Shown: positions 1,495 through 22,923 of the stretch, piece by piece | How positions within the stretch are numbered: position 1 is the stretch's first letter | How the letters are laid out: every line of letters starts with the position of its first letter | IMG/VR virus record: IMGVR_UViG_3300008954_000288 | Span: 1-23,082 of that record | Direction: 5' to 3' (one strand) | DNA: 23,082 nucleotides | Origin: a virus | Program-made: the position numbers and the translations under genes | Notes under the pieces: model-generated | What the model saw: the letters and a program-made list of their open reading frames with translations, nothing else | Told to the model about the DNA's origin: nothing | Database searches by the model: none

Positions 1495-1513
1495 GAGGGT
1501 ACGGAGTACCCTC
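1495..1513 (-). promoter_or_regulatory. hairpin promoter-like element M1 (GGA loop), upstream of SSB
   Basis: The plus strand reads GAGGGTAC-GGA-GTACCCTC, an 8-bp perfect stem with a 3-nt loop. The apex ACGGAGT is shared with the elements at 14608 and 19649, and differs by one loop base from those at 22517 and 22909. The element lies about 70 bases before the SSB start and is followed in the transcription sense by TAATG. The form matches N4 virion RNA polymerase promoters, which are hairpins on the template strand with a purine at the loop centre. Promoter activity is inferred. Confidence 0.6.
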
Positions 1514-1575
1514 ATATATAAAATATGTTGTGTTAAATAAGTATAGAGATTTTCCTATTTTAGCTTTTTTTGTTA

Positions 1576-1581
1576 TATAAT
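1576..1581 (+). promoter_or_regulatory. possible -10 box for plus-strand island
   Basis: A perfect TATAAT ends 9 bases before the ATG at 1591. No good -35 box is visible at the usual distance. If it is used, the transcript would start within a few bases of the ATG and be nearly leaderless, which fits the absence of a Shine-Dalgarno site there. This is weak evidence in AT-rich DNA. Confidence 0.25.
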
Positions 1582-1590
1582 GCCACTACT

Positions 1591-1971
1591 ATGAGCGGAT
1601 TTGAAGATATTAAAGGGTTAAAGTTACCAGGTGTTGATGCTAAAGGTAACTTTCCTAGTAAACACCCCCAATTTATTACACAAAATGGGAAATCTGTAAT
1701 TAACCCTGCTTGGAATAAAGACCAAGCTATCTTACGTGAACAAGCTAAAGAAGTAGTTCGTATGAATCAGCAAGATATTATGAAAGATGCTGCTCGTCAC
1801 GAAAAGAATATGTATAAACCTAAACCTCAGAATACTGGTTTTAGATTCCCAGGAGGAACTAAATTACCAGGCGTGTTAGGTATTCCTTTCTTACTGCAAG
1901 ACTTTATGCATTTATATAACTTACAAACAGCTCCAGAAATCTTACCATCAGGTGCCCCTAAAGAAATATGA
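1591..1971 (+). CDS. unknown protein, first gene of plus-strand island
   Basis: The 126-residue product is not one I recognise. The start is placed at ATG 1591 (MSGFEDIK). Upstream codons from TTG 1570 are in frame, but neither start has a clear ribosome site. The protein is rich in Lys, Pro and Gly and repeats KLPGV twice (near residues 11 and 91). A charged segment in between is likely helical (AILREQAKEVVRMNQQD). There is no signal peptide and only a short hydrophobic patch (VLGIPFLLQDF). Its stop overlaps the next ATG. Lying against the direction of the replication genes, it may belong to the late transcription programme or be an acquired cassette. Its function is unknown. Confidence 0.7.
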   Translation: MSGFEDIKGLKLPGVDAKGNFPSKHPQFITQNGKSVINPAWNKDQAILREQAKEVVRMNQQDIMKDAARHEKNMYKPKPQNTGFRFPGGTKLPGVLGIPFLLQDFMHLYNLQTAPEILPSGAPKEI

Positions 1972-2354
1972 CCTCTGATGAATTAAAGCAGTTATCTCTT
2001 AATACTTTAGCAGGAGCATCTGCTGCACAAGCTGCAGATATGACCAGACATGCTTTAACAGGTAAAGGTCAGTCATGGTTACCTAATTCTATGGCAGCTA
2101 AACAAGGTATTCCTAATCCTTCCACTACTAATTGGTGGAAAGCAGGTAAACTTCCTATGAACCTTCAAGGTTCTTTTATGGGAGCTAAACCAACAGTAGG
2201 TGGTACTCTAGGTCTTGCAGCACTTGCAGGATATGGGGGTTACAAGTTAGGTGATTGGTTTATCAATACTAATGTTGCTGATTCTATAGGATTAGGTAGA
2301 AAAGATCTAGAAGGCTATGGTTCTTACCTAGCAAATCTTAAATTACCTAAATAG
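1968..2354 (+). CDS. unknown protein with Gly-rich hydrophobic segment
   Basis: The 128-residue product starts at an ATGA overlap with the preceding gene, so the two are almost certainly co-translated. The N-terminal half is polar and Ala-rich (TLAGASAAQAADM). Residues about 78-100 form a Gly/Ala-rich hydrophobic stretch (GGTLGLAALAGYGGYKLG) that could be a membrane or glycine-zipper segment. Small proteins of this kind occur among phage ejected virion proteins and in lysis modules, but nothing here decides between these. The stop abuts directly on the stop of the convergent minus-strand gene, with no terminator between. Confidence 0.7.
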   Translation: MTSDELKQLSLNTLAGASAAQAADMTRHALTGKGQSWLPNSMAAKQGIPNPSTTNWWKAGKLPMNLQGSFMGAKPTVGGTLGLAALAGYGGYKLGDWFINTNVADSIGLGRKDLEGYGSYLANLKLPK

Positions 2355-2846
2355 TTATTCCATACTTTCAACAAAGTTTTTCCAAGCTTTGTCATCTTTA
2401 ATCTGTTCTAGTAAACTACTGTCTTGAAATACATCAGTAGTAAAGTAGTTACCATCAGTAGCTTTTACAATATCATCATATAAAGCATACCATTCAGTAT
2501 CTAAGTCAAATTGATTAAACAGCTTATTTGAAGTCTGTAATGAAAGTAGTTTATTAGTTCCTTTTACTTTGATTCCTCTAGTATCTTTACGAATACCAAA
2601 TCTAGTAAACGATTTATTAAAAGTTATCATTACTGAATCATCATGGTGTAACCCTAATTTTTCAATAGCATTTGCGTGGAAACGCACATAAATACTATTA
2701 TTTTTATGTTGAGCATACTGTTTGATAGTAATATCAATTGCTTGTACGATATCTCCCATTAGTAAATTAAAATCTAAGTTTTCTGTAGATACTCCTAGAT
2801 CATTAGGTATTTTTGATTTGAAATTACGGTCTTTAATAAATCCCAT
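2355..2846 (-). CDS. hypothetical protein, 163 aa
   Basis: The start at 2846 follows TTAGGAGAATAAT, a good ribosome site. The product is a soluble, mixed alpha/beta-looking protein with no membrane segment and no motif I recognise. A stretch at about residues 52-78 (FHANAIEKLGLHHDDSVMIT) superficially resembles the loop-and-strand pattern of AbrB/SpoVT swapped-hairpin proteins, but that is too weak for a call. It follows its upstream neighbour by one base, so they form a pair. Its 3' end is convergent with the plus-strand island. Confidence 0.75.
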   Translation of the reverse strand: MGFIKDRNFKSKIPNDLGVSTENLDFNLLMGDIVQAIDITIKQYAQHKNNSIYVRFHANAIEKLGLHHDDSVMITFNKSFTRFGIRKDTRGIKVKGTNKLLSLQTSNKLFNQFDLDTEWYALYDDIVKATDGNYFTTDVFQDSSLLEQIKDDKAWKNFVESME

Positions 2847-2847
2847 A

Positions 2848-3057
2848 TTATTCTCCTAAATGCGTATAACGTTCTTTCATAATCTCATTTACAATGTGCC
2901 AACTAATCTGGGCAACATCAGTTGCATCACAGTAATTACGAGCAGCTATCACAGGTGCTATAGCTAAAACTAATTTATCTTCTAGTTTCATGTCTTCTGT
3001 ACCTGTTACTTGTTTGAACAATTTAAGTTGTTCAGGGGTCAGTTCTTTCTTCACCAT
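2848..3057 (-). CDS. hypothetical protein, 69 aa
   Basis: I place the start at ATG 3057 (MVKKELTPEQ), which has AGGAGAT seven bases upstream. An in-frame ATG at 3090 would add 11 residues and run into the arm of an inverted repeat. The protein is helical and charged, with no recognisable motif. Upstream lie a 9-codon leader-like frame (3072-3101) and the repeat at 3083-3150, so expression may be controlled at the leader. It pairs with the 163-aa gene downstream. Confidence 0.7.
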   Translation of the reverse strand: MVKKELTPEQLKLFKQVTGTEDMKLEDKLVLAIAPVIAARNYCDATDVAQISWHIVNEIMKERYTHLGE

Positions 3058-3071
3058 ATTTGGATCTCCTG

Positions 3072-3101
3072 TTATAATGTGAGTGTCCACCAGGTTTTCA
3101 T
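3072..3101 (-). CDS. possible leader peptide MKTWWTLTL
   Basis: ATG at 3101 is preceded by AAGGAGATATTT, as good a ribosome site as any in the window, and is followed by only nine sense codons and TAA. The peptide has two adjacent Trp codons. The codons for its Thr-Trp-Trp-Thr part are one arm of an 11-bp inverted repeat. The frame ends 14 bases before the start of the 69-aa gene. This is the layout of a regulatory upstream ORF, but chance cannot be excluded. Confidence 0.4.
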   Translation of the reverse strand: MKTWWTLTL

Positions 3102-3150
3102 AAATATCTCCTTATTACTTTAAAACCCATAAAAGTATACTGGTGGACAC
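3083..3150. repeat. 11-bp inverted repeat flanking the leader ribosome site
   Basis: GTGTCCACCAG (3083-3093) is repeated in inverted form as CTGGTGGACAC (3140-3150). In the minus-strand RNA the 5' arm lies before the leader peptide's ribosome site, the 3' arm lies inside its coding sequence, and the ribosome site sits in the 46-base loop. It could be an RNA switch on translation or a DNA operator. Confidence 0.6.
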
Positions 3151-3611
3151 CTGTATATTATGTAAAGAGATATATAGTTTGAATTAGAGTGCCTCTACAA
3201 ATAGGAAAGTAGAGGACTAACATTTACGATGTTTCTAACGATATAAACCTAATTGAGGGAGAACGTCATAGATCGAACTTACGTTTGGATCAACTAGTTT
3301 ATACTGAGGGTAGTTATTTTCATAATAGCCACCATCCCTCTATACGCTATTGTAGATTATATAATAGTAGTGCCTAACAACATAGATACCAGTACACTAC
3401 TACACTCCCCTCTACACAGGGATAAAACATTATTACTGGTACCTTTTACATTAATGCCCCTTTTTTACAGGGGACTAGTGATTAATATCCCTTCAGATAA
3501 GGGCAGCCCCAACAATCGAGGAGTGATCCATAAGGTAGATCATGTTGATCTGCCCCTGCAGCTGATTTAATGGCTCTAATCTGCGTAACCTTGGCTATCA
3601 TACCACGATAC
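3151..3611. other. non-coding, hairpin-rich region
   Basis: No convincing gene lies here on either strand. The stretch holds many short inverted repeats: CCTCTAC/GTAGAGG near 3191; TAGTAGTG/CACTACTA at 3365 and 3395; ACCAGTA/TACTGGT near 3388 and 3435; CCCCT/AGGGG near 3457; CCCTT/AAGGG near 3488; GGGCAG/CTGCCC near 3500 and 3550; and AGATCA-TGT-TGATCT at 3537-3551. The part from 3400 to 3600 looks richer in G+C than its surroundings. I see no tRNA. A structured RNA, a replication origin or a decayed gene are all possible. Confidence 0.45.
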
Positions 3612-4016
3612 TTAAGTAGCTTTATTAATTAATTTCCAGAAACCATCTGGGTCAAAGTACATACGTTGTTTAATGATACTAGGTACTGATTTTTCTTTTT
3701 TACGTGTCTTAGTATGTCTAGGTGCTAATACCTTTTTAGGATCTGTATAACAAGATAACCTAGTAGCAGCAGTAGACATTGGAATACTTAAAGCTTCAGA
3801 TAATGAAGCAGCATTCCATTTAGTGCCATCATCTAAAGTGTAAAACCTCCCGCCTTTATGGGTTTTATTAACTTTACGATAAACTAACTTAGGATCTTTC
3901 GATGCCATTAATCTTGCATAGGCAGTACTAACACTGCACCCTAATTGTTCACTAAGCTGGTTAGTTGTAATAACAGTACCATCATCTAATGTGAATTCTA
4001 AATTTTTACTGCCCAC
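3612..4016 (-). CDS. predicted DNA-binding protein with duplicated HTH-like unit
   Basis: The 134-residue product contains the same unit of about 38 residues twice (about 8-45 and 58-97). Each opens with TLDDGT, continues through LSE-x-L, a turn and STA-x2-RL, and ends with DPK-x-V. The LSEQLGCSVSTAYARL pattern is that of a helix-turn-helix, so two recognition helices may sit in one chain and read a repeated or palindromic site. The C-terminus is basic (TKTRKKEK). Translation starts at GTG 4016, supported by GGAG six bases upstream. A transcription regulator of the middle or late switch is inferred; the exact family is not recognised. Confidence 0.75.
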   Translation of the reverse strand: MGSKNLEFTLDDGTVITTNQLSEQLGCSVSTAYARLMASKDPKLVYRKVNKTHKGGRFYTLDDGTKWNAASLSEALSIPMSTAATRLSCYTDPKKVLAPRHTKTRKKEKSVPSIIKQRMYFDPDGFWKLINKAT

Positions 4017-4018
4017 AG

Positions 4019-4102
4019 TTACTCCTGGAAGTCGTTAATAATTAAATAAATAAGCCATGCTTGGTATAGAATACTTGCCCCAACTAGGTATTCAAATAAC
4101 AT
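4019..4102 (-). CDS. 27-aa single-span membrane miniprotein
   Basis: ATG 4102 opens a 27-codon frame ending at TAA 4019. It fits exactly between its neighbours, starting just inside the stop region of the winged-helix gene (GGGGAC upstream as ribosome site) and ending three bases before the GTG of the next gene. The product, MLFEYLVGASILYQAWLIYL followed by IINDFQE, is almost entirely one hydrophobic helix. The tight fit in the operon supports it, but the short length keeps confidence low. Confidence 0.4.
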   Translation of the reverse strand: MLFEYLVGASILYQAWLIYLIINDFQE

Positions 4103-4103
4103 A

Positions 4104-4406
4104 TTAGTCCCCTTGTGTAGGTATTAACCAATACACACGTTTATCAATGGAATCTACTTGACTCTCAATTAAAACACTCTGTTTAAGTTCTAATACTGCA
4201 CGTTTGATTGTAGATATTGATTTATCTGCAAAATACGGATTATGTACAATAGATGAAATATTTGCTTTGTTCGCTGCTATGTAGATAAAGATATCTTTAG
4301 CTGTATTACTTAAATCATATTTATCTAAAGCTTCATCTACTTCAGCTTTAACTAATTGTTTCTTACGCCAAATTTGCGCAATATTTTTTAATGCTCGATT
4401 TTTCAT
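4104..4406 (-). CDS. predicted winged-helix regulator
   Basis: The 100-residue product has a basic N-terminus. Residues about 34-95 then read as a winged helix: a helix (TAKDIFIYIAA), a second helix, a recognition helix (KSISTIKRAVLELKQ) and a wing strand (SQVDSIDKRVYWLIP). The overall pattern is MarR/GntR-like without an effector domain. ATG 4406 follows AAGGAG. It sits between the RecA-like ATPase and the duplicated HTH gene, so two predicted DNA-binding proteins are adjacent, which suggests a control block. A hairpin lies in its leader at 4425-4453. The target is unknown. Confidence 0.7.
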   Translation of the reverse strand: MKNRALKNIAQIWRKKQLVKAEVDEALDKYDLSNTAKDIFIYIAANKANISSIVHNPYFADKSISTIKRAVLELKQSVLIESQVDSIDKRVYWLIPTQGD

Positions 4407-4424
4407 TTTTCTCCTTAATTAGAA

Positions 4425-4453
4425 GGCAGTCTTAGTTAAAGTCATAAACTGCC
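4425..4453 (-). promoter_or_regulatory. leader stem-loop upstream of winged-helix gene
   Basis: GGCAGT (4425-4430) pairs with ACTGCC (4448-4453), and TTA/TAA pairs continue inside after a one-base bulge. It lies about 20 bases before the start of the 100-aa regulator, in a gap of 124 bases without a plausible gene. There is no U-tract. It may be an operator or an RNA leader structure. Confidence 0.35.
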
Positions 4454-4530
4454 AAAATGACTAGCAACTTGAGTTTAATTTATAGTCCTCGTCTACTAAA
4501 GGCTAAACTCTGCATATTTACATAAACACC

Positions 4531-5286
4531 TTAGTCTTCATAGTAAGTATGAAGACGTTCCAGTACATGTTGTATATTGTTATCAATGAATGTTTCATTC
4601 ATTTCCCACATACCTACTGGACTACGCATACGCTCGTTAACAGTTTCTTTAGTTAAACGAGTTTGGTATACATATTTAAAGCCAAGCATCTCTTCTGTGT
4701 CATTAATCTTATATAGAGGAGAGTTAGCAATTTCCATTTTAGTTAATGGCATCTTCTTACAGCTGATAACAGTAGAGAAGAAACTCTCTATACCTTGATT
4801 CATTAATGAGCCTTTAACTTTAACAAGCGTTTCATTAACCATTTCAGACTCATTATAGACATCTGAGGTATGAGCTAAGAAAATGATATTACGAGTAGAT
4901 TTAGCTACATCTTGTGCCATCATATTCTTCATAAACTGAGCATAACCTCCCCAGGCTTGCATAGTGTTAGATGAAGTCAGTACTTTAGTACTTTCATACA
5001 TATCCATTAGATACGTTAAACTATCTACTACAACTGTGTGAATGCTACCTGTATCATGGTCTTTACCACCAATATTGATAGACTCTTCAGTCTCTAACGC
5101 ATTGATAATCATAGGAACATGTTCAGGATCTGTGATTGTGTACTGAATAAAATCAGATTTAAAAGGTAATTTTTTATTGTTCTCACAATTAAGATACAAA
5201 ACACCTTTTGGGTCATCAATATGTTGAAGACTTGCTGATTTACCTGATGCGGATTTACCACATACTAATACTAAGTTATTGTTCAT
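4531..5286 (-). CDS. RecA-fold AAA ATPase (AAA_24/Sak4-like, N4 gp43-like)
   Basis: The 251-residue protein opens with a Walker A loop (GKSASGKS, residues 10-17). A Walker B strand follows at about residues 84-90 (TVVVDSL, D88), then a strand ending IIFLAHT that resembles the sensor strand of RecA-like phage ATPases of the AAA_24/Sak4 group. Such proteins act as small recombinases or SSB-linked annealing factors. N4 encodes a comparable ATPase (gp43) between the primase and SSB, and the position here is the same. ATG 5286 follows AAGGAG, which overlaps the end of the primase gene, so the two are coupled. The exact activity is inferred. Confidence 0.8.
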   Translation of the reverse strand: MNNNLVLVCGKSASGKSASLQHIDDPKGVLYLNCENNKKLPFKSDFIQYTITDPEHVPMIINALETEESINIGGKDHDTGSIHTVVVDSLTYLMDMYESTKVLTSSNTMQAWGGYAQFMKNMMAQDVAKSTRNIIFLAHTSDVYNESEMVNETLVKVKGSLMNQGIESFFSTVISCKKMPLTKMEIANSPLYKINDTEEMLGFKYVYQTRLTKETVNERMRSPVGMWEMNETFIDNNIQHVLERLHTYYED

Positions 5287-11467: not shown

Positions 11468-11656
11468 TTAATGTAATACTTTAGGTGGCTTTGAAAGTAA
11501 ATCCAATATTTTTTCAGCTTTATCTAAATATTCTTCTTTATGCTGTGTGTAAAACTCTAAAGCTTCTTTTTTTGAAAAAGAAGTAGAAGTCTGTTCAATA
11601 GCACCCATGTAATACTCAAAGCATAATGCTTGAGATAATGTAATGATTTCAGTCAT
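11468..11656 (-). CDS. 62-aa hypothetical helical protein
   Basis: The product is helical and mildly charged, with no recognised motif. Its ATG overlaps the end of the VWA gene by 8 bases, and its stop lies five bases before the DNA polymerase start, so it bridges the two translationally. Confidence 0.65.
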   Translation of the reverse strand: MTEIITLSQALCFEYYMGAIEQTSTSFSKKEALEFYTQHKEEYLDKAEKILDLLSKPPKVLH

Positions 11657-12785
11657 TGATATAAATAGTCTCCCCTATTACTGCAGGCTCATGATCTGAG
11701 TTGCATACCCATAAAACATCATATTCTACATTATTTTGTACAGGCTCTGCGTATAAATCCGTGAAGTAGATTAGTATGTTAGGAGGATTATCTTTACAAT
11801 ATTCAAATACAGGATCGAAAGAAGTACCCCCTTCACCTTTAAATTGGATATCATGAATATCTGTATATTTATCTACTTTATGTACACCATGTATAATGTA
11901 ATCACAGTCAATTACTACTAGTTCTTCTGGCTGATAGGTATCTCTAATACTTTCAATTTCAGTTAGCATTTCAGTTAGTTCTTCTTGTGTAACTGAACCT
12001 GAAGTATCAATAGCAATAGTGATATTTCCAATTGTTTCAGAATACATGCTAGGCAAGTAATGATTAGGCATAAACCTTTTATTAGGTCTCATCCATGTAA
12101 AGTCATTCTTACTGCGTTCACTTACATACCTATCTAATAACTGTTTCCAATCTAATTTAGGATTAATTAGATCATCAATCATTCTAGCTACTTCCCCAGG
12201 GATTTCACCTTGTTGTTTACCAGCCATCATGGATTGTGTCTGTGCTTGTACAATAATACTAGTTAATTGCTCTTTTAGCTTATCAGTACCTTGTGCAGTA
12301 TTTTGAGAATCTTGATCATTAGTAGATCCTTCACCAGGTTCTAAGATATCTTGTACAAAGTTTTTATATTGATCTTGCTCTTCAAATATGATGTCATACA
12401 CTTGCTCAGTAGTCATATCAGCATATTTACTATCATGCAAACCATCAGCAGGTAATTTAAAATTTGCTTTAAGTAGCATATCATTAATTACGTAGTCACC
12501 AGCAACGTTCCATAAGCGCTTATCTCTATTTCCTACTCTTGTAATATGTTGGAATGCTACGTGCCACACTTCGTGTGCCAGTAGCCCAGTAAGCTCTTCT
12601 GTATCAATAGAAGCTACGAAATCAGGATTGTATAGAATAGTAAGTCCATTAGTACCTGCTGTAGGTATTACATCTGAAATTTCATGACGTAATCGAAGAC
12701 ATATAGTAGATAGAAACACAGATTTAGACATTAACTGCACTTTGGCATACCTAATTCTGTCTTCTAAAGTTTTGTTTGTCTCCAT
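11649..12785 (-). CDS. VWA/metallopeptidase-like protein (DUF2201 type, N4 gp25-like)
   Basis: The 378-residue protein has the two-part layout of the VWA-like/putative metallopeptidase family. The N-terminal part holds H71-E72-x2-H75 in LLAHEVWHVAFQH, followed by LWNVAGDYVINDMLL. The middle is Gln/Glu-rich and probably flexible. The C-terminal VWA domain carries a MIDAS set: D260-x-S262-x-S264 (DTSGS), T321 (GGTSFDP) and D343 (YFTDLYAE). The partner MoxR ATPase gene lies four bases upstream. Such pairs work as chaperones that insert metals or remodel protein complexes. In N4-like phages the pair is conserved (gp24/gp25), but its target is not known to me. Whether the HExxH site is catalytic is uncertain. 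Confidence 0.85.
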   Translation of the reverse strand: METNKTLEDRIRYAKVQLMSKSVFLSTICLRLRHEISDVIPTAGTNGLTILYNPDFVASIDTEELTGLLAHEVWHVAFQHITRVGNRDKRLWNVAGDYVINDMLLKANFKLPADGLHDSKYADMTTEQVYDIIFEEQDQYKNFVQDILEPGEGSTNDQDSQNTAQGTDKLKEQLTSIIVQAQTQSMMAGKQQGEIPGEVARMIDDLINPKLDWKQLLDRYVSERSKNDFTWMRPNKRFMPNHYLPSMYSETIGNITIAIDTSGSVTQEELTEMLTEIESIRDTYQPEELVVIDCDYIIHGVHKVDKYTDIHDIQFKGEGGTSFDPVFEYCKDNPPNILIYFTDLYAEPVQNNVEYDVLWVCNSDHEPAVIGETIYIND

Positions 12786-12789
12786 AGTA

Positions 12790-13818
12790 TTATCCTACCA
12801 TTAAGTGTGCATTCTTATTTACCCAATCTAAAATTAATTGATGTCCTTTTAATGCAGGTGTTTTACTATATACATCTTTTAATGTAAGTAATTGCATTTC
12901 AGGAGGTAGCTTATTAACTACAACTAGTAATTGTGTAATATTTTGTTCATTCATATTATGACTAACTAGAGTAGTTAAAGCGTATTGTTTATCTGGTTCA
13001 TCTGGCATCTGAATTCCATGAGGATTTTGTAACATATCCTCAATAGTAGGTAGAGATTCATAAATCTCGCAGTATGCTTTAAATTCAGTAGCAGGTCCTT
13101 GACCTACAGTACCCGACATTAATACATAGTCTGTATAGTCAAAGTCTTCTCTTGAAGCAATAATATCTGACAAGAAGCTCCAAGTTCTAGGACATGCAAA
13201 CGTATCATCACTATGATTAGGATCAAATGTATGTAGACGCTCAGGTCTAAATTTAATAAATGAAATTACTCTATGATCAATACCGTTTGTATTAGCCCAC
13301 TCTAACCAGTCCTTGTGACTTACAGATAGATTCATATGAATTAATCTAGACTGCATAGCTGTACTTAATTTGTTAACTACTGCCTTATCAGTCTTTTTAT
13401 TACCAGCACATACAATCCAAGTATTAGGGTGTAATTCATATTCTCCTACCATACGATCCAGTACAACTTTATAAGCTGCTGATTGTAGATTAGGGGTAGC
13501 TGAATTCATCTCATCTAAAAAGATTAGCCAACCATTCTTACCTTCAGGAATTTTATCAATACCTTTTAATGGAAATAATGATGGTGGTGCGTATTTCATA
13601 CGTATACCTGCTTTATCTACAATAGGAAATCCTAGTAGATCAGTAGGGTCTGCTTGTGCTAATCTTAGGTCACGTACTTCTACATTAACTGATTTAGCTA
13701 AATCATTAATAATGTCTGATTTACCAATTCCTGGGCTACCTACAAGCATAGGTACTTTATCTGCTTTAAATAAGCGTTTTAAGCCTTCTGAGGCATCTTT
13801 AGGTGTGATATCTAACAT
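12790..13818 (-). CDS. MoxR-family AAA+ ATPase (N4 gp24-like)
   Basis: The 342-residue protein shows Walker A GSPGIGKS (residues 27-34), Walker B FLDEMNS (D102-E103), then sensor-1-like WIVCAGNKK and an SRLIHM arginine region, in MoxR spacing. MoxR ATPases act with VWA proteins, and the partner gene follows directly. ATG 13818 has GGAGAATTAGT upstream, overlapping the end of the preceding gene. The energy-dependent remodelling target is unknown. Confidence 0.9.
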   Translation of the reverse strand: MLDITPKDASEGLKRLFKADKVPMLVGSPGIGKSDIINDLAKSVNVEVRDLRLAQADPTDLLGFPIVDKAGIRMKYAPPSLFPLKGIDKIPEGKNGWLIFLDEMNSATPNLQSAAYKVVLDRMVGEYELHPNTWIVCAGNKKTDKAVVNKLSTAMQSRLIHMNLSVSHKDWLEWANTNGIDHRVISFIKFRPERLHTFDPNHSDDTFACPRTWSFLSDIIASREDFDYTDYVLMSGTVGQGPATEFKAYCEIYESLPTIEDMLQNPHGIQMPDEPDKQYALTTLVSHNMNEQNITQLLVVVNKLPPEMQLLTLKDVYSKTPALKGHQLILDWVNKNAHLMVG

Positions 13819-13819
13819 A

Positions 13820-14410
13820 CTAATTCTCCAGAATATTTAAGGTAACTCTTTGTTGCATAGAAGATGTTGGTGCATCAGGAACTACTTCTTCTTTTACTTG
13901 TTTAGCTTTACGTGGTGCACGTTTAGGTTCTTCAGGAATATACTTATGAAGCATTTCAGGCCACCCTTTACGTAATTTAGTAGTAGTATTCCAAGTATCC
14001 AAAGAATCATTTAAGTACTGTTTCATTTCTTGCATTTCTTTTTGCAAATCAGTATCTTGTTGGTGTAGTGTAGATACTTCTTCTTCATGTTCTCTAGGAA
14101 CAGTAAAAGGAATTTCCAAAGGTCTCCACTCATCTTTTGGGTCTACTGTTGCTAAATAATAATGAGGATTACGTTTTGTATACCAACGTTCGCTTTCTTC
14201 CTCATTTACTAACATTTGCACTTTATGTTTATGATGAAAAAATCCAGCAGGTAATTTTGAAATATATGGAGTATAGTATGAAATCCATGTTTCATAACAT
14301 TTAGTAGTTAGTTCTGTTTTAGCTGTTTCAATTTTAGTTGTAGGCAGATTAAATAAATCATTCATAATATCTTGTTGAATGCTATATTGGGCTTGTTGTC
14401 CTAATCGCAT
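13820..14410 (-). CDS. hypothetical protein, 196 aa, likely coiled coil
   Basis: The start at 14410 overlaps the previous gene and has GAGGAG upstream. The product has a charged heptad-like helix (about residues 110-140, LHQQDTDLQKEMQEMKQYLN). A basic linker follows (about residues 160-170, EPKRAPRKAKQ) that may contact nucleic acid or a partner. No family is recognised. Its place just before the MoxR/VWA pair makes it a candidate adaptor or substrate of that pair (inference). Confidence 0.75.
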   Translation of the reverse strand: MRLGQQAQYSIQQDIMNDLFNLPTTKIETAKTELTTKCYETWISYYTPYISKLPAGFFHHKHKVQMLVNEEESERWYTKRNPHYYLATVDPKDEWRPLEIPFTVPREHEEEVSTLHQQDTDLQKEMQEMKQYLNDSLDTWNTTTKLRKGWPEMLHKYIPEEPKRAPRKAKQVKEEVVPDAPTSSMQQRVTLNILEN

Positions 14411-14589
14411 GACGGCTCCTCGTAAAGTAATTGTTTAATTGTAATAAGTAACTCATCTATTTGGTCTTCTTGAATTAATGTTGCATTAAATGTTAATTGC
14501 AGTATGTCTTCAGAGAGTTCTTCTACTTTATAGACGAGTTGATTTTCAGAATCTAATACTTTAAATTCTGTTTGGTTTTCTTCTAGCAT
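14401..14589 (-). CDS. 62-aa acidic hypothetical protein
   Basis: ATG 14589 follows AAGGAGC. The small acidic protein is predicted to alternate strands and helices, and ends PSCD. It is the first gene after the hairpin element at 14608-14622, so it may open the MoxR/VWA/polymerase transcription unit. Confidence 0.75.
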   Translation of the reverse strand: MLEENQTEFKVLDSENQLVYKVEELSEDILQLTFNATLIQEDQIDELLITIKQLLYEEPSCD

Positions 14590-14607: not shown

Positions 14608-14622
14608 AGGAACGGAGTTCCT
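14608..14622 (-). promoter_or_regulatory. hairpin promoter-like element M2 (GGA loop)
   Basis: AGGAAC-GGA-GTTCCT on the plus strand forms a 6-bp stem with a 3-nt loop and the apex ACGGAGT. It overlaps the stop codon of the zinc-finger gene and lies 19 bases before ATG 14589. A start 11-12 bases from the loop centre would give a very short leader holding only the ribosome site. Promoter function is inferred from its likeness to the other four elements. Confidence 0.55.
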
Positions 14623-17607: not shown

Positions 17608-17609
17608 AG

Positions 17610-17861
17610 TTAGTCCTCATCAAAGTTTATAATTGTGTGTTCTGGTTCTAGAAGTAAGAAGGTTTGATTCACTTGGTTATTTAGATAAAAAGTGTGTTCT
17701 TCTCCAAATTCAAAACCATGATTACAATATACCTTACGTGAACCTGGGTGCCCTTTTGAAGTACTAACTACTACATGCTTTGTAAATTCACATTTCCCTC
17801 TATCAGTGGGAATTAGTAATCCCATTCCAGGAACAATATCAAATATATCAATAGCATTCAT
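17610..17861 (-). CDS. 83-aa hypothetical protein, beta-rich
   Basis: The product looks like a compact beta protein (GMGLLIPTDRGKCEFTKHVVV, then HTFYLNNQVNQTFLLLEP), with no recognised motif. It starts in an ATGA overlap with the helicase stop, so it is translationally coupled. Confidence 0.7.
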   Translation of the reverse strand: MNAIDIFDIVPGMGLLIPTDRGKCEFTKHVVVSTSKGHPGSRKVYCNHGFEFGEEHTFYLNNQVNQTFLLLEPEHTIINFDED

Positions 17862-19246
17862 CTAACTAATACTAACTGTTGCAGTGCTCGTGTACATGCT
17901 ACATAATATAAGTTATCTTCCTGTTGCTGTTCCCATTCCACATTTGTTCTTGTTTTTAGATAATCACAAATATCAGGATTAATGAAGAATACTGTGTCTG
18001 TTTCTAAACCCTTACTTGCATGAATTGTCATTAACTTTCTCTTACTTGCACTATCTTCGTGTAACTTCATAGATTTAATAAAAGTTTTAACTTCTGCAAT
18101 TGTGTTGCATCTATCTAAGATAGCAAAAATACCTGAGTATCTGTCATTTAATGCAGCAGTGTTCCAGTTCTTAGATTCATAAATCTGAAGTATCTTATGA
18201 TACTGTGCTTTTGTGTTATCAATTAATGTGTCAATACGACTATTTGTCTTCAGTAGTGGCTTTAGTTCTTTCTCTAATTGAGCTATAAACATTCTACCAA
18301 TTGAGAATTTAATATCTTTCTTGATAAACTGGTAAGCTAGTTTAATCAGTGAAGAATTAGTTCTACTAATAATAAAACAGTCATCAGGGTATTGTATACT
18401 ATGTGCGTATTTTTGCTGTAATACTCCTCCTGTCTTTTGACTAGTGATATGAGGAACTCTACTATGTACTATTGATAGTATTTCCTGAGGACATCTAAAA
18501 CTCTCATACATAGGATATTCTTTAGGATTGTATCCTTGTTTAATTAGATCAATAGCATGAGGATCACTACCTCTAAATCCATAAATAGCTTGATGAGCAT
18601 CTCCTACAAATACTATCTTGTTTGTTGGTATACAATTCAAGAACTTAATTTGTTGAGGATTTAAATCCTGGCACTCATCTACAAGTACCATATCGTACTT
18701 TTCTGTTTTCATTCCTAATCGCATAGGGTATTCCAACATTTCATCACCACTAATTTCAGTAGTGTGCATTAATCCCTGTTTCAGGAATACTTTAGCATCT
18801 TCAATTAGATTAGAAGCAATATTAAATCTATCACACGTTGCTTCCCATGATTTATCACTGGCATTACCTCCTAGTGTCATGTGCTTTTGTGCAAGATTTG
18901 CAGCTACATCATAGTTAAATAGCTTTGAATATTTTTTAAAATTTACTTTACTAGATTTAAATTTACTGTGTTGTTTCAACATAGAAAGGCCTAGTGAGTT
19001 GAAAGTCTTACAACTCCAACCCATAGGTAACTTATCAACTACATCATTTACAATTGCCTTATTAAACGCTAAATATAGCCCATTACTAGTTGTATTAGCT
19101 AATTGCATAAGTACAGAAGTCTTTCCTGATCCTGCTACAGCATTCACAATAATCGCAGATTCCGTACTATTAATAATATCTTGCTGCTCTTGAGTAAAGT
19201 TTATAGCAGGTGCAGAACTGCCAAAATTAAATGCAAAATTATTCAT
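17858..19246 (-). CDS. superfamily 1 DNA helicase, UvrD/Rep-like
   Basis: The 462-residue protein shows the SF1 motif series in order: FTQEQQDIIN (Q motif); AVAGSGKT (Walker A, K42); DMVLVDECQDLNPQQ (D190-E191); VFVGDAHQAIYGFRGSD (motif III); ESFRCP (IV); MTIHASKGLETDTVFF (V); and LYYVACTRALQQLVLV (VI). It is shorter than UvrD (about 720 residues), so the 1B/2B subdomains are reduced, as in compact phage helicases such as Dda. I saw no DnaB-type replicative helicase in the window, so this and the primase ATPase are the candidates for unwinding at the fork. It is part of the run downstream of 19621. Confidence 0.92.
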   Translation of the reverse strand: MNNFAFNFGSSAPAINFTQEQQDIINSTESAIIVNAVAGSGKTSVLMQLANTTSNGLYLAFNKAIVNDVVDKLPMGWSCKTFNSLGLSMLKQHSKFKSSKVNFKKYSKLFNYDVAANLAQKHMTLGGNASDKSWEATCDRFNIASNLIEDAKVFLKQGLMHTTEISGDEMLEYPMRLGMKTEKYDMVLVDECQDLNPQQIKFLNCIPTNKIVFVGDAHQAIYGFRGSDPHAIDLIKQGYNPKEYPMYESFRCPQEILSIVHSRVPHITSQKTGGVLQQKYAHSIQYPDDCFIISRTNSSLIKLAYQFIKKDIKFSIGRMFIAQLEKELKPLLKTNSRIDTLIDNTKAQYHKILQIYESKNWNTAALNDRYSGIFAILDRCNTIAEVKTFIKSMKLHEDSASKRKLMTIHASKGLETDTVFFINPDICDYLKTRTNVEWEQQQEDNLYYVACTRALQQLVLVR

Positions 19247-19445
19247 GTAACATCCTTTCAGTCATATGTAAGTCATTTTGTCTTCTTGCCTGACACATTG
19301 TAGGATTATGTAATCCTTCTACTAGAGTCCCATATTTCTCAATAGAGAGTAGATTAAGTCTACACCCCTGTCTAGTATGATTTATACATCCTAAATGGGT
19401 ACAATGCTTAATTTCAAAGTGTGAGTAGTGAAGTTTAGATGACAT
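19239..19445 (-). CDS. 68-aa Cys/His-rich protein
   Basis: The product holds four Cys and several His (KHCTHLGCINHTRQGC, later MCQARRQ) in a pattern compatible with a zinc site. It overlaps the helicase start by 8 bases. The ATG at 19445 has no strong ribosome site but lies about 12 bases from a predicted sigma70 start point. Confidence 0.6.
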   Translation of the reverse strand: MSSKLHYSHFEIKHCTHLGCINHTRQGCRLNLLSIEKYGTLVEGLHNPTMCQARRQNDLHMTERMLHE

Positions 19446-19463
19446 TGTGTGTTTTCAATATTA

Positions 19464-19492: not shown

Positions 19493-19621
19493 TTATTCGA
19501 AATCTACAGAAGTAAAGTAAATTGTTGCTTTTTTAGCTTCAAATGGGATATCTAAATGTTGGCATAGTTGTACCCAACAATCCCCTATAAAGTCTTGTTT
19601 AAAAATAATTAATTGTTGCAT
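19493..19621 (-). CDS. 42-aa hypothetical protein
   Basis: ATG 19621 follows AAGGAAATGA, and the frame ends at TAA 19493. The product (beginning MQQLIIFKQDFIGDCWVQLC) is of mixed character with two Cys residues; no family is recognised. It is the first gene after the hairpin element at 19649-19665, with a leader of only about 25 bases, which supports it as real. Confidence 0.65.
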   Translation of the reverse strand: MQQLIIFKQDFIGDCWVQLCQHLDIPFEAKKATIYFTSVDFE

Positions 19622-19648
19622 TTCATTTCCTTTTTATTAATTCACATT

Positions 19649-19665
19649 AGTGGACGGAGTCCACT
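19649..19665 (-). promoter_or_regulatory. hairpin promoter-like element M3 (GGA loop)
   Basis: AGTGGAC-GGA-GTCCACT on the plus strand gives a 7-bp stem, a 3-nt loop and the apex ACGGAGT. In the transcription sense it is followed by AATG, as at 1495. It lies just behind the terminator of the RNA polymerase gene and just before the small gene at 19621, where a new transcription unit is expected to begin. Confidence 0.6.
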
Positions 19666-19692
19666 TCGTACTTTCAACCACCAACTCATAAT

Positions 19693-19728
19693 AAAAAAAA
19701 TAACCCCCTATACCTTACGGCATAGGGG
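19693..19728 (-). terminator. factor-independent terminator after RNA polymerase gene
   Basis: In the RNA sense CCCCTATGCC-GTAA-GGTATAGGGG forms a 10-bp stem (one G-U pair) with a tetraloop, followed by GTTA and a run of eight U residues. It begins six bases after the RNA polymerase stop codon. It separates the early polymerase unit from the middle operon. Confidence 0.9.
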
Positions 19729-19734
19729 ATTTTG

Positions 19735-21510
19735 TTAACTTAACATGTATTGACTACTTAGAATATCAACATCTAAATCATTAGACGCTTTAGTAACTGG
19801 TACATGATGTCCTTTTAACTCACTAAGGATATCACTCAATAGATTACTTCTAGCTATTTCAGCCATAATCTCTTTATACATACCTGTTACTGTTCTTAAG
19901 TAATTAGGGTGGAATACAAAGCAATCATGGATATGTACTAATTCAAAGTCTGCACGTCTTACCATTTCTCTAGCTATATAACCATCAACACTGTGAACAA
20001 TGTTAGCTACAAGGCTTCTATAGTTATTACTAGGTGTTTGCTTAGCGTATCTATAAGTAAACGTTCTATGGTTTAACTCATCTACTTCAATACGAGTATC
20101 AGTCATTTCCATAACTTTAACTTTAGCAACATGCCCATCTGGTAGAGTCCACTGATGTACATCAGCATCGTAGTTCCAGAAGTCATTGATAGTAGACATC
20201 ATAGCTTCAGCACCTTCAAAAGAATCATCTAATACTTTATAGAATACTTCTAACTGTTCCTCTGTAAAGGTATTAGCAGGATTAGCTTGTGAATTATAGT
20301 AATGAGTCATGATAGGCTTCTTAACTAACTTTCTATCAACAGTATTATTTAAGTGCTTATTCATTTCATCAGCTACCATTTCGTAAAGGTCTTCACGTTT
20401 ACCTGTATCAACCATATTACAAGCTTTAGCAGTCTTCTTACAGCCTGTAAGCGCTGCCATAACCTGTAAACCACTAGCTGTAGCATCTAAGGACATTGTA
20501 TAACCTGTAGCTTTACCATCTAAGGTATCTTGATAAGCTCTAATAGCCTTTCTACCTAAGATAGGTTCATCCCAATCTTTAGTTTCAAAGGTATCATTCT
20601 GAGCATTAAACCACTGTATACGTTCTCTCCAAGTTAACTTATCATGTCCTGCATGATTAGCAATAGCTATCTTAAGGTTAACAAGTTTAGTAATAACTTC
20701 TTTATTATGAAGAGATAACAAAGCTTTACCATATTCATTAGATTGAATATTAAGGTCATAGCCACTGCTGTAACTACGCCCACGCTTATCAAATCTCCAT
20801 ACAAAGTAGAAAGGCATACCAATATACTCTGATGCTATTGTTAAGAACTGATCAGGATCCATAGCAATATTACTATTAGTTTCATTTAGTAACACATCTG
20901 GGTCTATCTCCCATGGTACTGTCTGTAATTTATTTAAAGCATCTAAGGCTTGAGGTTCTTCATGGTGATTACCCTTACCAAGCAGTACACTCTTTTGTTC
21001 GAATAACCAGCCACCAGTATTGTTGTCTACCCATTCTTGAGGTACTTCTTTCATAGGCGGTAAGAACTGAAGCATATCTAGTTTATGCCTAGTATCAGTT
21101 TCTACTATCAATTTAGGTTTAACCTCTGTACCATCTGTATACAGCAGGATGTCAAATAAGCCTGTATTAGCTGTTACTGCTAATAACTCTGCACCAGTCT
21201 TAACTGCATCAACAGGGTTTCTCATACCTACATCAAAGCCTATAGAAGTAGCTGGGTCTTGAATAGGACGCTGTCTATCAGTCTTAAGAATGTTATAAAA
21301 GATAGCATTAACTACTTTATTAGTTTTCTTTAGGTGTTTAATACGTAGGTTCTTAGAATCATAGTACTTAGCACTTCTATAATTAGATACTGCTTGTAGT
21401 ACATCCATGTATAACTTAACTGGTAATTCTCTGTTAAGGTCTTCTAAGATAATGCTTTGAGTTTGTTGCTTGCTATATTGTTGTTCTGTTTGTAATTGAT
21501 TAGTTTCCAT
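19735..21510 (-). CDS. T7-type single-subunit RNA polymerase, unsplit
   Basis: The 591-residue protein aligns by eye with the T7 RNA polymerase catalytic core: DKRGR (241-245) for the T7 DxxGR motif; D342 in SLDATASGLQ for D537; R393-x3-K397 and Y405 in KLVKKPIMTHYYNS for R627, K631 and Y639; H506 in NIVHSVDG for H784; and D529 in HIHDCF for D812. All catalytic residues are present. T7 has 883 residues; here only about 145 precede the region matching the T7 start of the core, so the N-terminal promoter-binding domain is much reduced, as in N4 polymerases. N4 splits this enzyme into two chains (RNAP1, RNAP2); here it is one. AGAGGATAGT precedes ATG 21510. It probably transcribes middle genes. 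Confidence 0.92.
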   Translation of the reverse strand: METNQLQTEQQYSKQQTQSIILEDLNRELPVKLYMDVLQAVSNYRSAKYYDSKNLRIKHLKKTNKVVNAIFYNILKTDRQRPIQDPATSIGFDVGMRNPVDAVKTGAELLAVTANTGLFDILLYTDGTEVKPKLIVETDTRHKLDMLQFLPPMKEVPQEWVDNNTGGWLFEQKSVLLGKGNHHEEPQALDALNKLQTVPWEIDPDVLLNETNSNIAMDPDQFLTIASEYIGMPFYFVWRFDKRGRSYSSGYDLNIQSNEYGKALLSLHNKEVITKLVNLKIAIANHAGHDKLTWRERIQWFNAQNDTFETKDWDEPILGRKAIRAYQDTLDGKATGYTMSLDATASGLQVMAALTGCKKTAKACNMVDTGKREDLYEMVADEMNKHLNNTVDRKLVKKPIMTHYYNSQANPANTFTEEQLEVFYKVLDDSFEGAEAMMSTINDFWNYDADVHQWTLPDGHVAKVKVMEMTDTRIEVDELNHRTFTYRYAKQTPSNNYRSLVANIVHSVDGYIAREMVRRADFELVHIHDCFVFHPNYLRTVTGMYKEIMAEIARSNLLSDILSELKGHHVPVTKASNDLDVDILSSQYMLS

Positions 21511-21534
21511 ACTATCCTCTGTTTGTTAATTAAT

Positions 21535-21574
21535 AAAAAAAATATAAACCTTAAGAGCTATGACACTCTTAAGG
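21535..21574 (-). terminator. terminator between early gene and RNA polymerase gene
   Basis: CCTTAAGAG (21549-21557) and CTCTTAAGG (21566-21574) form a perfect 9-bp stem with an 8-base loop. In the RNA sense it is followed by UUUAUA and eight U residues. It begins 13 bases after the stop of the 154-aa early gene. The polymerase gene has no promoter element of its own after it, so partial read-through would set its level. Confidence 0.75.
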
Positions 21575-21586
21575 CTTAATTAGATG

Positions 21587-22051
21587 TTACAAGTTACCTA
21601 CAAGTACTTGTGCATCTGCAGTTGTTAGATGTTTAACAACCTGTTCTGGTTTAACAGCCTCTAACTCTGTCATCATATTACTAATTGTTAGAGCTTTCTG
21701 CTCTTCAGAACTAGTTTCAGTTAGTTCATTATCATAGTAATTGATAAAACCCATACCAACGTATTTACCAGCGTGCTCACCTTTAACAGGTTTAACTTTA
21801 ACTTGGAAGTTAGTATATACCTTGCCATTAACTTTCCTAGGCTTGGTAGTAGTGAACAATACATCGTTAGTTAGATTATTAGTAATAATCTTAAGTACTA
21901 AGTCTGTATTAAGTACGTTAGCTGTTGCCTCACTGTTAGGTGTGAAAACACAACTTCTTTCATCATCTAAATAGATGTTGTAGTACTCTTGGTTGTTTTG
22001 CTTTTTAGTGTTTTTAGTCTCTGCAGACTTATCAACTAATGTTATAGCCAT
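21587..22051 (-). CDS. 154-aa early protein, unknown
   Basis: ATG 22051 follows AAGGAAATAAAATC. The protein is mixed alpha/beta with Lys- and Thr-rich strands (KVNGKVYTNFQVKVKPVKG) and a helical C-terminus (ISNMMTELEAVKPEQVVKHL). The strand-rich centre could be an OB-like barrel, but I cannot support a family. Its mRNA leader can form a pseudoknot (22074-22126), so its translation may be regulated. It lies directly before the RNA polymerase in the early unit. Confidence 0.75.
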   Translation of the reverse strand: MAITLVDKSAETKNTKKQNNQEYYNIYLDDERSCVFTPNSEATANVLNTDLVLKIITNNLTNDVLFTTTKPRKVNGKVYTNFQVKVKPVKGEHAGKYVGMGFINYYDNELTETSSEEQKALTISNMMTELEAVKPEQVVKHLTTADAQVLVGNL

Positions 22052-22073
22052 GATTTTATTTCCTTATGAAATT

Positions 22074-22126
22074 ACTACCTATATTGAGATTAAGAGTATT
22101 AGCAGGTAGTTAAAACTAATATTCTT
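22074..22126 (-). promoter_or_regulatory. possible H-type pseudoknot in early-gene leader
   Basis: In the minus-strand RNA, AAGAATATTAG (22126-22116) pairs with CTAATACTCTT (22102-22092) in 10 of 11 positions. The 13-base loop contains ACTACCT (22110-22104), which is perfectly complementary to AGGTAGT (22080-22074) downstream. The second stem ends a few bases before the ribosome site of the 154-aa gene. The fold is predicted by hand only. Confidence 0.4.
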
Positions 22127-22202
22127 TATTAAATACTTTCTGGGTACTATCCTTTAGTTAAAAAGGAAATGAGCAGTTTTGAATCATGCTTAGGATATTG
22201 GG

Positions 22203-22460
22203 TTATGCTTTCTTTGTAGTCTTAGAATTGATTTCAGTGATGTTACCGTTGTCATCAATACATACGTTATGCTCGATTAAGAAGTCTGCTAATTCTTGCT
22301 TAGCCTCTACTCTATTCATAACTAATGATTGCTCAAGGCTCTCATTAATGATTGACATTGTATTTCTGGTTGATGCTCTTAGACCCTGTTCACCTGTGAG
22401 TTCATCTACTAAACCTAAAACGTTAACAATTGAATTACTTAAATGTTTCCATATTTTCAT
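22203..22460 (-). CDS. 85-aa early protein, unknown
   Basis: ATG 22460 follows AGGAGCAACAT. The product is helical (LEQSLVMNRVEAKQELADFL) with a short strand-like part (VCIDDNGNITEI) and a basic tail (SKTTKKA). No motif is recognised. It is the first gene after hairpin promoter E2, so it should be made immediately after infection. Host-takeover proteins are often of this kind. Confidence 0.75.
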   Translation of the reverse strand: MKIWKHLSNSIVNVLGLVDELTGEQGLRASTRNTMSIINESLEQSLVMNRVEAKQELADFLIEHNVCIDDNGNITEINSKTTKKA

Positions 22461-22486
22461 ATGTTGCTCCTATTAATGTATATAAA

Positions 22487-22509
22487 GTTATATATAAAGT
22501 ATATATAAC
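22487..22509. repeat. 10-bp AT-rich stem-loop at the start of the E2 transcript
   Basis: GTTATATATA (22487-22496) and TATATATAAC (22500-22509) are perfect complements around a 3-base loop. The element begins just after the predicted start of the E2 transcript (GGC at 22512-22510), so the mRNA would carry a hairpin at its very 5' end. That could protect the RNA from 5'-end-dependent decay; a second extruded DNA hairpin is the alternative. Confidence 0.65.
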
Positions 22510-22516
22510 GCCTGAC

Positions 22517-22529
22517 GTGACGAAGTCAC
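22517..22529 (-). promoter_or_regulatory. hairpin promoter E2 (GAA loop)
   Basis: GTGAC-GAA-GTCAC on the plus (template) strand gives a 5-bp stem with a 3-nt loop and a purine centre, as in N4 virion RNA polymerase promoters. GG follows at positions 11-12 from the loop centre in the transcription sense, exactly as in E1. It lies between the terminator of the first early gene and the second early gene. The flank at 22531-22583 is TG-rich with almost no gene-like content. Confidence 0.75.
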
Positions 22530-22583
22530 CCTATCCTATGTGTAGTCTGTGTGTCTATCTTTTGTGTGATGTGTGGTGTGTGT

Positions 22584-22623
22584 AAAAAAAAGGTATGTCC
22601 CAACACCCGAAGGTGCTGAGACA
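22584..22623 (-). terminator. strong terminator after the first early gene
   Basis: In the RNA sense, positions 22623-22596 fold into a 12-bp stem (two G-U pairs) closed by a UUCG tetraloop (CACC-UUCG-GGTG core). UACC and a run of eight U residues follow. It begins nine bases after the stop codon of the 76-aa gene and ends that early unit before promoter E2. Confidence 0.92.
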
Positions 22624-22632
22624 TTGCATTCG

Positions 22633-22863
22633 TTAGAATGCAGGCTCTTCGTCAGAAGAGTCAACTTTACCTGTAAGTAAAGCATTAACACCATTAGGTG
22701 CTTGCTTGTCTTTCCAGGCAGTTAAGGTAATATCATAATCACCACCAGTTAAGATGGTAATTAAGTTATCAACATTTACATCAGCACCAGACACACTGAT
22801 GTTCACTCCCTTAAGTTCTGTACCTGAAGCAAGGATGTTGTAGTTTTTGTATGATTTAGCCAT
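22633..22863 (-). CDS. 76-aa early protein with SSB-like acidic tail
   Basis: ATG 22863 follows AGGAGTC. The small protein looks like a beta-rich fold (NYNILASGTELKGVNISVSG, then DYDITLTAW) and ends with DSSDEEPAF. An acidic tail closed by Phe is the protein-interaction tail of bacterial SSBs (DDDIPF) and T7 gp2.5. It is the first gene behind promoter E1 and thus probably the first gene expressed. No family is recognised, and a DNA-binding role is inferred only from the tail. The last codons also fold into two small hairpins (22625-22642 and 22645-22660) next to the terminator. Confidence 0.75.
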   Translation of the reverse strand: MAKSYKNYNILASGTELKGVNISVSGADVNVDNLITILTGGDYDITLTAWKDKQAPNGVNALLTGKVDSSDEEPAF

Positions 22864-22908
22864 GATAGACTCCTATTTAGTTAAAAGATGACACAAAATT
22901 ATGCCAGG

Positions 22909-22923
22909 CGTGACGAAGTCACG
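22909..22923 (-). promoter_or_regulatory. hairpin promoter E1 (GAA loop)
   Basis: CGTGAC-GAA-GTCACG on the plus strand gives a 6-bp stem with a 3-nt loop. The 14-base core is identical to that of E2. In the transcription sense GGC lies at positions 11-13 from the loop centre, as in E2. It is about 45 bases before ATG 22863. The form fits an N4 virion RNA polymerase promoter on the template strand. Confidence 0.75.

Follow-up and report, generated by a model that had tools for sequence, protein, structure and literature searches.

Introduction

Promoters formed by DNA hairpins are a classical feature of bacteriophage N4. Here, we describe five short hairpins dispersed over 23,082 nucleotides (nt) of an uncultured virus (positions 1 to 23,082 of IMG/VR record IMGVR_UViG_3300008954_000288, referred to below as the window), which profile searches with the window proteins identify as a leftward-oriented cluster of early and middle genes from a member of the Schitoviridae (N4-like viruses). 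Judging from their sequences, the hairpins are probably promoters for T7-like RNA polymerases of the phage itself: the two early hairpins with the loop GAA would be read by the virion RNA polymerase (vRNAP), and the three middle hairpins with the loop GGA most likely by RNAPII.

Extruded DNA hairpin promoters are known in detail from N4, in which all three are located at the first-entering end of the genome. According to PMC4496689, an N4 vRNAP promoter requires a G-purine-A loop with a C:G closing pair, and residue R904 of the enzyme contacts the G at position -8. Hairpin promoters with 3-nt loops were also predicted in the early region of phages LUZ7 and LIT1 (three each; PMC3715699) and of Pectobacterium phages CB1, CB3, and CB4 (three each; PMC6027278), and further background is provided by PMC3670811, PMC9525291, PMC13001222, PMC3915230, and PMC10925440. 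No account of hairpin promoters in the middle region, or of two classes of them, was found in searches of the open-access literature.

Five hairpins in the window

The original prediction, which was made from the sequence alone, described five hairpins with an invariant ACGRAGT apex, a common polarity, and positions directly upstream of minus-strand genes. All five are found with perfect stems, of 8, 6, 7, 5, and 6 base pairs (bp) at 1495, 14608, 19649, 22517, and 22909, respectively. The apex is ACGGAGT (loop GGA) at three sites and ACGAAGT (loop GAA) at two, and every hairpin lies on the + strand, outside the called open reading frames (ORFs) and upstream of minus-strand genes:

22909..22923, + strand (template): early-class hairpin CGTGAC-GAA-GTCACG, upstream of a 76-amino-acid (aa) ORF; candidate start C 22905/22904
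22517..22529, + strand: early-class hairpin GTGAC-GAA-GTCAC; candidate start C 22512/22511
19649..19665, + strand: middle-class hairpin AGTGGAC-GGA-GTCCACT, flanked 5' by TCACATTA; candidate start C 19645/19643
14608..14622, + strand: middle-class hairpin AGGAAC-GGA-GTTCCT; candidate start C 14603, just before the AAGGAG of the next ORF
1495..1513, + strand: middle-class hairpin GAGGGTAC-GGA-GTACCCTC; candidate start C 1490

With stems of at least 5 bp, C-GRA-G hairpins occur five times on the + strand and once on the - strand, whereas 100 dinucleotide shuffles give a mean of 0.05 and a maximum of 1 for the two strands together; with stems of at least 6 bp, there are four on the + strand and none on the - strand, against 0.02 in the shuffles. 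The ACGRAGT heptamer itself is present in six copies on the + strand and two on the - strand. The extra + strand copy (7527) has a stem of 3 bp, one minus-strand copy (19669) sits in the flank of the 19649 hairpin, and the other (12574) forms a 5-bp hairpin within codons for HEVWH in the gp25-like gene (read by eye), which is also present in the relative G006 and can thus be explained by coding. When no pairing was required in the search, five of the six intergenic + strand C-GRA-G copies on a 48-kb contig of the same virus proved to be paired over at least 5 bp, versus 3 of 27 elsewhere, and the sixth lies within a terminator-like hairpin. Late-gene hairpins on the + strand of the same virus (G005:2773 and G005:9551) were considered and set aside, 9551 being probably coding, with a counterpart in G006 that has the loop GCA. 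Single sites in coding DNA, such as 12574 on the - strand and G005:9551, are what chance or codon bias might produce; as an explanation of the five as a set this origin is practically negligible, being refuted already by the shuffles and by the conservation in G006 described below, in addition to the strand bias.

The longest contig of the same virus (48,070 bases) holds the window at 18,305-41,386, with five differences in 23,082 bases and none in the hairpins. In 14 loci on seven other contigs of this virus, each of the five sites that lies within the range of a locus is present with its flanks, and the sites scored as absent fall outside those ranges. Folding of the five sites as single-stranded DNA gave energies down to -8.1 kcal/mol, which overlap those of the N4 promoters P1-P3 (-4.1 to -7.3 kcal/mol); the weakest is 22517, at -2.7 kcal/mol, and 16 of 200 shuffles of it fold equally well.

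A location at transcription-unit boundaries would also suit elements that act in RNA, such as intrinsic terminators or 5' leader hairpins. This is highly improbable, considering that none of the five agrees with the terminator rule (a G+C-rich stem and a T run) while other terminator-like sites were found nearby, that no Rfam family was detected at the gathering score, and that what stays invariant is the loop together with the pair that closes it, with the C element on the 5' side of the + strand. Terminator, Rfam, and tRNA readings of the five hairpins were all tried, and none matched.

Conservation in a close relative

G006, a close relative, is 80% identical to this virus in the ATPase, 71% in RNAPII, and 44% in vRNAP, and retains all five sites before orthologous genes:

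Counterpart of 22909: CGTCC-GTA-GGACG
Counterpart of 22517: CCGTCC-GTA-GGACGG
Counterpart of 19649: GTGGAC-GGA-GTCCAC
Counterpart of 14608: AGGGAC-GGA-GTCCCT
Counterpart of 1495: GGGTAC-GGA-GTACCC, upstream of the G006 gene for the single-strand DNA-binding protein (SSB)

Among the 25 inner pairs, 16 are unchanged and nine have changed on both sides, with none changed on one side and none broken; the ungapped flanks are identical at just 4-10 of 20 positions. Selection for the hairpin itself, as originally proposed, is borne out by this comparison. The window alone shows limited covariation, with the inner A-T pair identical in all five hairpins, and it is the comparison with G006 that reveals compensatory change. 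Eight of the nine double-sided changes fall at the two early sites, where GAA with A at -8 has become GTA with C at -8; the three shared middle sites keep GGA with A at -8, and one of the three includes a compensated pair. G006 also possesses additional + strand sites, a GGA hairpin before the exonuclease gene and a GTA hairpin at the early end. Between the two viruses, the segment of vRNAP that separates catalytic motif B from motif C, and in which the N4 specificity loop would be expected, ranks with the more diverged portions.

Inverted repeats in several copies might also be double-strand operators, or replication or packaging sites, recognized by a DNA-binding protein. In operators, one would expect the half-sites and not the spacer to be conserved, whereas here the outer stem varies with compensation and the loop and closing pair are fixed; the orientation on one strand and the position before operons also argue against such sites, which we regard as improbable.

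Comparison with N4 promoters

As a positive control, the identical scan of the first 50 kb of N4 returned P1, P2, P3, and one other site, and P1 as obtained matches the oligonucleotide in PMC12633501. All five hairpins have in common with N4-type promoters an inverted repeat with a 3-nt loop on the template strand and a 5'-G-purine-A-3' loop closed by C:G (the N4 loops are GAA in P1 and GGA in P2 and P3); stems of 5-8 bp with variable outer pairs and a location before early genes are additional likenesses. The apex is GCGRAGC in N4 and ACGRAGT in this virus. A template C at the N4 +1 position, 9 nt from the loop-closing C, is present at 22517 and 22909, both of which carry CC at +1/+2, and absent at 1495, 14608, and 19649, where the C lies further from the hairpin than in N4, by 1 nt at 14608 and 19649 and by 3 nt at 1495. 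In sequence, 22517 and 22909 resemble N4 vRNAP promoters except for A instead of G at -8, whereas the other three sites are in the middle region. N4 has three hairpin promoters, all at the early end, and the five hairpins of this virus are dispersed.

The middle promoters of N4 RNAPII serve the same kinds of genes (replication, SSB) that follow the middle sites described here. That enzyme requires a single-stranded template and an unknown factor for promoter opening (PMC4496689), and an extruded hairpin in the present virus could supply the single-stranded DNA. The scan found no CG[AGT]AG hairpin in the middle region of the N4 template strand.

Distribution in Schitoviridae

The survey included 22 genomes (20 named Schitoviridae, N4, and this virus), in which the intergenic status of a site was derived from crude ORF calls that missed o85, an 85-aa early ORF of the window. 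C-GRA-G hairpins of at least 6 bp number 117, compared to a summed shuffle mean of about 4.5. As many as 112 lie on the majority strand of their genome and five on the other, a bias that is partly built in because these hairpins themselves served to define the majority strand. The intergenic share is 63 of 117, versus 105 of 963 for other hairpins with 3-nt loops. Numbers are uneven, with up to 15 hairpins per genome and nine genomes with 0-3 (none in 1.188.A, ZC03, and QDWS595; one in RPP1; two in RHph_Y2_6, JWDelta, Pokken, and N4; three in EE36phi1).

In a search without a pairing requirement, 70 of 234 intergenic C-GRA-G copies on the majority strand were paired over at least 5 bp, against 1 of 154 on the other. 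A hairpin precedes the gp24/gp25 operon in 12 of the 22 genomes (ATPase within the next four called genes). Metagenome loci were gathered through the ATPase (best 80 of 289 relatives); among 67 distinct loci, 23 have a template-strand C-GRA-G hairpin no more than 1,500 nt upstream of the ATPase gene and two have one on the other strand, and the totals over these loci are 101 and 16, respectively.

The surroundings of the 70 intergenic hairpins are also conserved: A is found seven nt 5' of the loop in 73%, versus 27% of 161 unpaired same-strand controls, and C thirteen nt 5' of the loop in 56%, versus 16% of such controls. At -8 these 70 sites have A (27), C (20), G (19), or T (4), so the -8 G of N4 is not a family rule. 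Hairpins with the loop GTA, observed in PG11, VBP47, Pylas, PT15A5, phi50-12, and the early sites of G006, have the same polarity as those with GRA, which indicates that the loop centre is not always a purine. Inside genes that would be read antisense, there is an excess of paired majority-strand C-GRA-G (33 of 1201, versus 13 of 1164 on the other strand), involving late genes in several genomes (e.g., G005:2773). Wobble mismatches were tried as a means of telling RNA pairing from DNA pairing and dropped, the counts being too small.

Early and middle classes

Sites with the loops GAA, GGA, or GTA were classified as early (up to 20 kb before RNAPII) or middle (from RNAPII to SSB), with stems of at least 6 bp, so that one of the two early sites of this virus was counted. 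The test used 18 of 23 genomes; 1.188.A, ZC03, RPP1, QDWS595, and RHph_Y2_6, with few or no hairpins, were excluded before counting, and for EE36phi1 the template strand was assigned manually. Of 130 classified sites, 51 are early and 79 middle. CC at 10-13 nt from the loop is a mark of early sites (27 of 51, versus 8 of 79 middle) and A at seven nt a mark of middle sites (70 of 79, versus 31 of 51 early), with p values of 0.0002 and 0.0014, respectively, in within-genome permutations. Within genomes, the two classes also have different apex bases (p = 0.0005); when this virus and G006 are left out, the difference holds for the loop (p = 0.002) and for the -8 base (p = 0.009).

The idea of two classes arose from some of the genomes on which it was later tested, and 66 other metagenome loci (27 early and 55 middle sites, with 30 of the 66 lacking any) served as a separate check, early and middle being assigned by whichever RNAPII gene was found. 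The same trends were observed for A at seven nt (early 7 of 27, middle 45 of 55) and CC (early 13 of 27, middle 5 of 55), and the loop GGA is present at 14 of 27 early and 46 of 55 middle sites.

By sequence, the GGA sites 1495, 14608, and 19649, which precede the SSB gene, the gp24/gp25 operon, and the helicase operon, match the middle class common to many Schitoviridae. The predictions in LUZ7/LIT1 and CB1/CB3/CB4 are likewise 3-nt-loop hairpins in N4-like phages, but they are reported as three each and early (PMC3715699, PMC6027278), whereas here hairpins are more numerous in some genomes and most classified sites are middle.

We give an even chance to a more general proposal, that many Schitoviridae run early and middle transcription from template-strand hairpins, that vRNAP and RNAPII each recognize hairpins by a separate apex code (the loop centre plus the -8 pair) and a separate start spacing, that these codes drift between viruses, and that N4 with its three early hairpins is a reduced exception. 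Hairpins of two classes, distributed through tens of kilobases of many related genomes, challenge the view that such elements are confined to the first-injected end. They also offer a possible explanation for how RNAPII, needing a single-stranded template, finds middle genes, and provide a natural collection of polymerases and matching promoters in which to study how hairpins are recognized.

The two phage RNA polymerases

A vRNAP gene had been expected outside the window and is indeed present on the 48,070-base contig (L044:9972-18113, +), ending 191 nt left of the window (phrog_2206, 4.9e-194). The ORF has 2717 codons from stop to stop, with separate matches to the RNAP domain (6.8e-61) and the C-terminal domain (5.0e-139). 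In an alignment, N4 positions D559, R666, K670, D951, K437, and R440 are all matched, of which we take 559, 666, 670, and 951 to be catalytic positions. The numbers 437 and 440 are from PMC4496689. A PDB search with vRNAP as a single sequence gave no credible match. Motif A of this vRNAP is ExDAxxxG (LEADAVTSG) instead of the ExDGxxxG motif used as a filter in PMC10654107, and the protein would thus fail that filter. The ORF lacks most of the approximately 1000-residue N-terminal part of N4 vRNAP; a 1224-codon ORF that overlaps its start (L044:6308-9982; no PHROG match at E 0.01) may be a separate gene for the missing part. The Schitoviridae marker set is complete (vRNAP, N4-type RNAPII, primase, family-A DNA polymerase, SSB, and terminase); vRNAP and terminase are encoded on the part of the 48-kb contig that lies beyond the window.

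RNAPII is encoded within the window:

19735..21510, - strand: RNAPII, a single 591-aa chain fusing RNAP1-like and RNAP2-like parts (phrog_2166 at residues 2-217, phrog_2051 at 274-522, PF00940)

phrog_2166 is an N4-like RNA polymerase family and phrog_2051 an RNAP2-like family. RNAPII is heterodimeric in all but two of the vRNAP species examined by PMC4496689. Of 74 metagenome ATPase loci, 20 encode a fused form (548-606 aa); 18 of these are distinct, counting G006, and vRNAP was found in all six of the corresponding contigs tested (G006 and five others). In Achromobacter phage JWDelta (L095:4759-6928), RNAP2 is seemingly split into two ORFs.

Possible assignment of the hairpins to the enzymes

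The original prediction regarded all five hairpins as vRNAP promoters of the N4 type. The template-strand polarity and the adjacent vRNAP gene agree with this; A at -8 in all five, the shifted +1 C at three, and the membership of the GGA sites in the middle class do not, and it is not the best fit. Since the -8 G fails at five sites and the start spacing at three, we do not classify the five as vRNAP promoters of the N4 type but propose that they work like them.

The virion enzyme alone might still read both classes, with the differences in apex and start element tuning strength or timing. We hold this to be rather unlikely and at the same time a serious rival: the C-GRA-G fold is the same at all sites, N4's own promoters use both loops (PMC4496689), and both classes are jointly missing in 17 fused-RNAPII loci. 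On the other hand, the start element is class-specific, as is the apex within genomes; N4 vRNAP starts eight nucleotides from -8, which misfits three of the five sites, and about four copies of it are injected, with the N4 sites in the leftmost 10% of the genome (PMC4496689). Two enzymes are favoured because start elements and within-genome apex codes are separate, and because the early code has changed where vRNAP has diverged (44% identity to G006) while the shared middle sites have kept GGA with A at -8 where RNAPII is 71% identical. The assignment of enzymes to classes that we infer from this places vRNAP at the early hairpins, and we lean slightly towards RNAPII as the reader of the middle ones.

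A number of observations weigh against this assignment to two enzymes, or against reading the hairpins as promoters at all. First, the -8 G of N4 is replaced by A at all five sites, with its partner changed to T, and the N4 contact residues K114, R119, W129, and R904, tried as predictors of the -8 base, had to be abandoned, the loops being unalignable across the family. Second, N4 RNAPII middle promoters are described as AT-rich, extending from -7 to +2, and not as hairpins (PMC4496689), in contrast to those of this virus. Third, G006 has T at -8 in the middle site before its exonuclease gene and three CG[AGT]AG hairpins on the opposite strand, one of which is the HEVWH site. Fourth, when genomes are pooled, the loop and the -8 base do not differ between classes (p 0.36-1); classes separate within genomes and not in the pool, which suggests that the apex code differs from genome to genome. 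The partition is blurred in several genomes (BUCT194, JSF3, and SBP1), and in the separate check of 66 loci C at 13 nt alone showed no class difference (p = 0.35). Fifth, 17 distinct fused-RNAPII loci have no template-strand CG[AGT]AG hairpin of at least 6 bp and four on the other strand, while vRNAP is present in each of the five contigs of such loci tested; a single enzyme for the two classes would likewise account for their being missing together. These viruses, which include L166, L192, and L226, may use another promoter apex. Finally, the length of RNAP1 was dropped as a marker of middle hairpins: it is 311-442 aa in 12 cultured genomes with at least three middle sites and 260-276 aa in eight with none or one, but 1.188.A, which has no hairpins, has 304-306 aa, and the pattern does not hold in metagenome loci, where hairpin-bearing members have 267-311 aa.

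Proposed transcription scheme and gene layout

In the two-enzyme scheme, negative supercoiling would extrude the C-GNA-G hairpin on the template (+) strand, and the polymerase would grip the apex and start on a template C a few nt to its 5' side, producing transcripts that run leftward. Promoter activity and the start sites are what we infer here. The hairpins at 22909 and 22517 would be early promoters for the vRNAP entering with the DNA and would serve the first small genes; the RNAPII gene lies further down from 22517 and could be reached from this second early promoter. Newly made RNAPII would then read 19649 (before the helicase unit), 14608 (before gp24/gp25), and 1495 (before SSB). Initiation at 14608 on the C that lies five nt away from the stem would place the 5' end of the leader immediately ahead of AAGGAG. 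Terminator-like minus-strand hairpins precede both 22517 and 19649, which would therefore open new units:

22595..22624, - strand: terminator-like hairpin after o76 (13 pairs, loop of 4, T run)
19702..19731, - strand: terminator-like hairpin directly after RNAPII

A terminator-like site is also located between o154 and RNAPII, on the path from 22517 to RNAPII. In the region examined, nine terminator-like sites were found against a shuffle mean of 4.8, and individual ones are not certain. A sigma-70 promoter scan gave fewer hits than shuffles in both halves.

The window cluster encodes SSB, a Sak4-like protein, primase, exonuclease, family-A DNA polymerase, a gp24/gp25-like pair, helicase, and RNAPII. 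Genes and units that follow the hairpins on the - strand, in leftward order, are listed here:

22633..22863, - strand: o76, 76-aa early ORF (no PHROG match at E 0.01)
22203..22460, - strand: o85, 85-aa early ORF (no PHROG match at E 0.01)
21587..22051, - strand: o154, 154-aa ORF (no PHROG or Pfam match)
17858..19445, - strand: unit following the 19649 hairpin, with a 68-aa ORF and helicase (phrog_1967)
11649..14589, - strand: unit following the 14608 hairpin, with a 62-aa ORF, a 196-aa ORF, the gp24-like ATPase, and the gp25-like VWA/metallopeptidase protein
706..1473, - strand: SSB (phrog_743), longest ORF from TTG 1473
245..706, - strand: RuvC-like resolvase, the gene following SSB

The SSB gene has an alternative ATG at 1425, preceded by a purine-rich leader. 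Just past the 1495 hairpin, the run of minus-strand genes is broken at 1570-2354 by a pair of ORFs on the + strand, which have 133 and 128 aa and no PHROG match, so SSB would need a promoter of its own.

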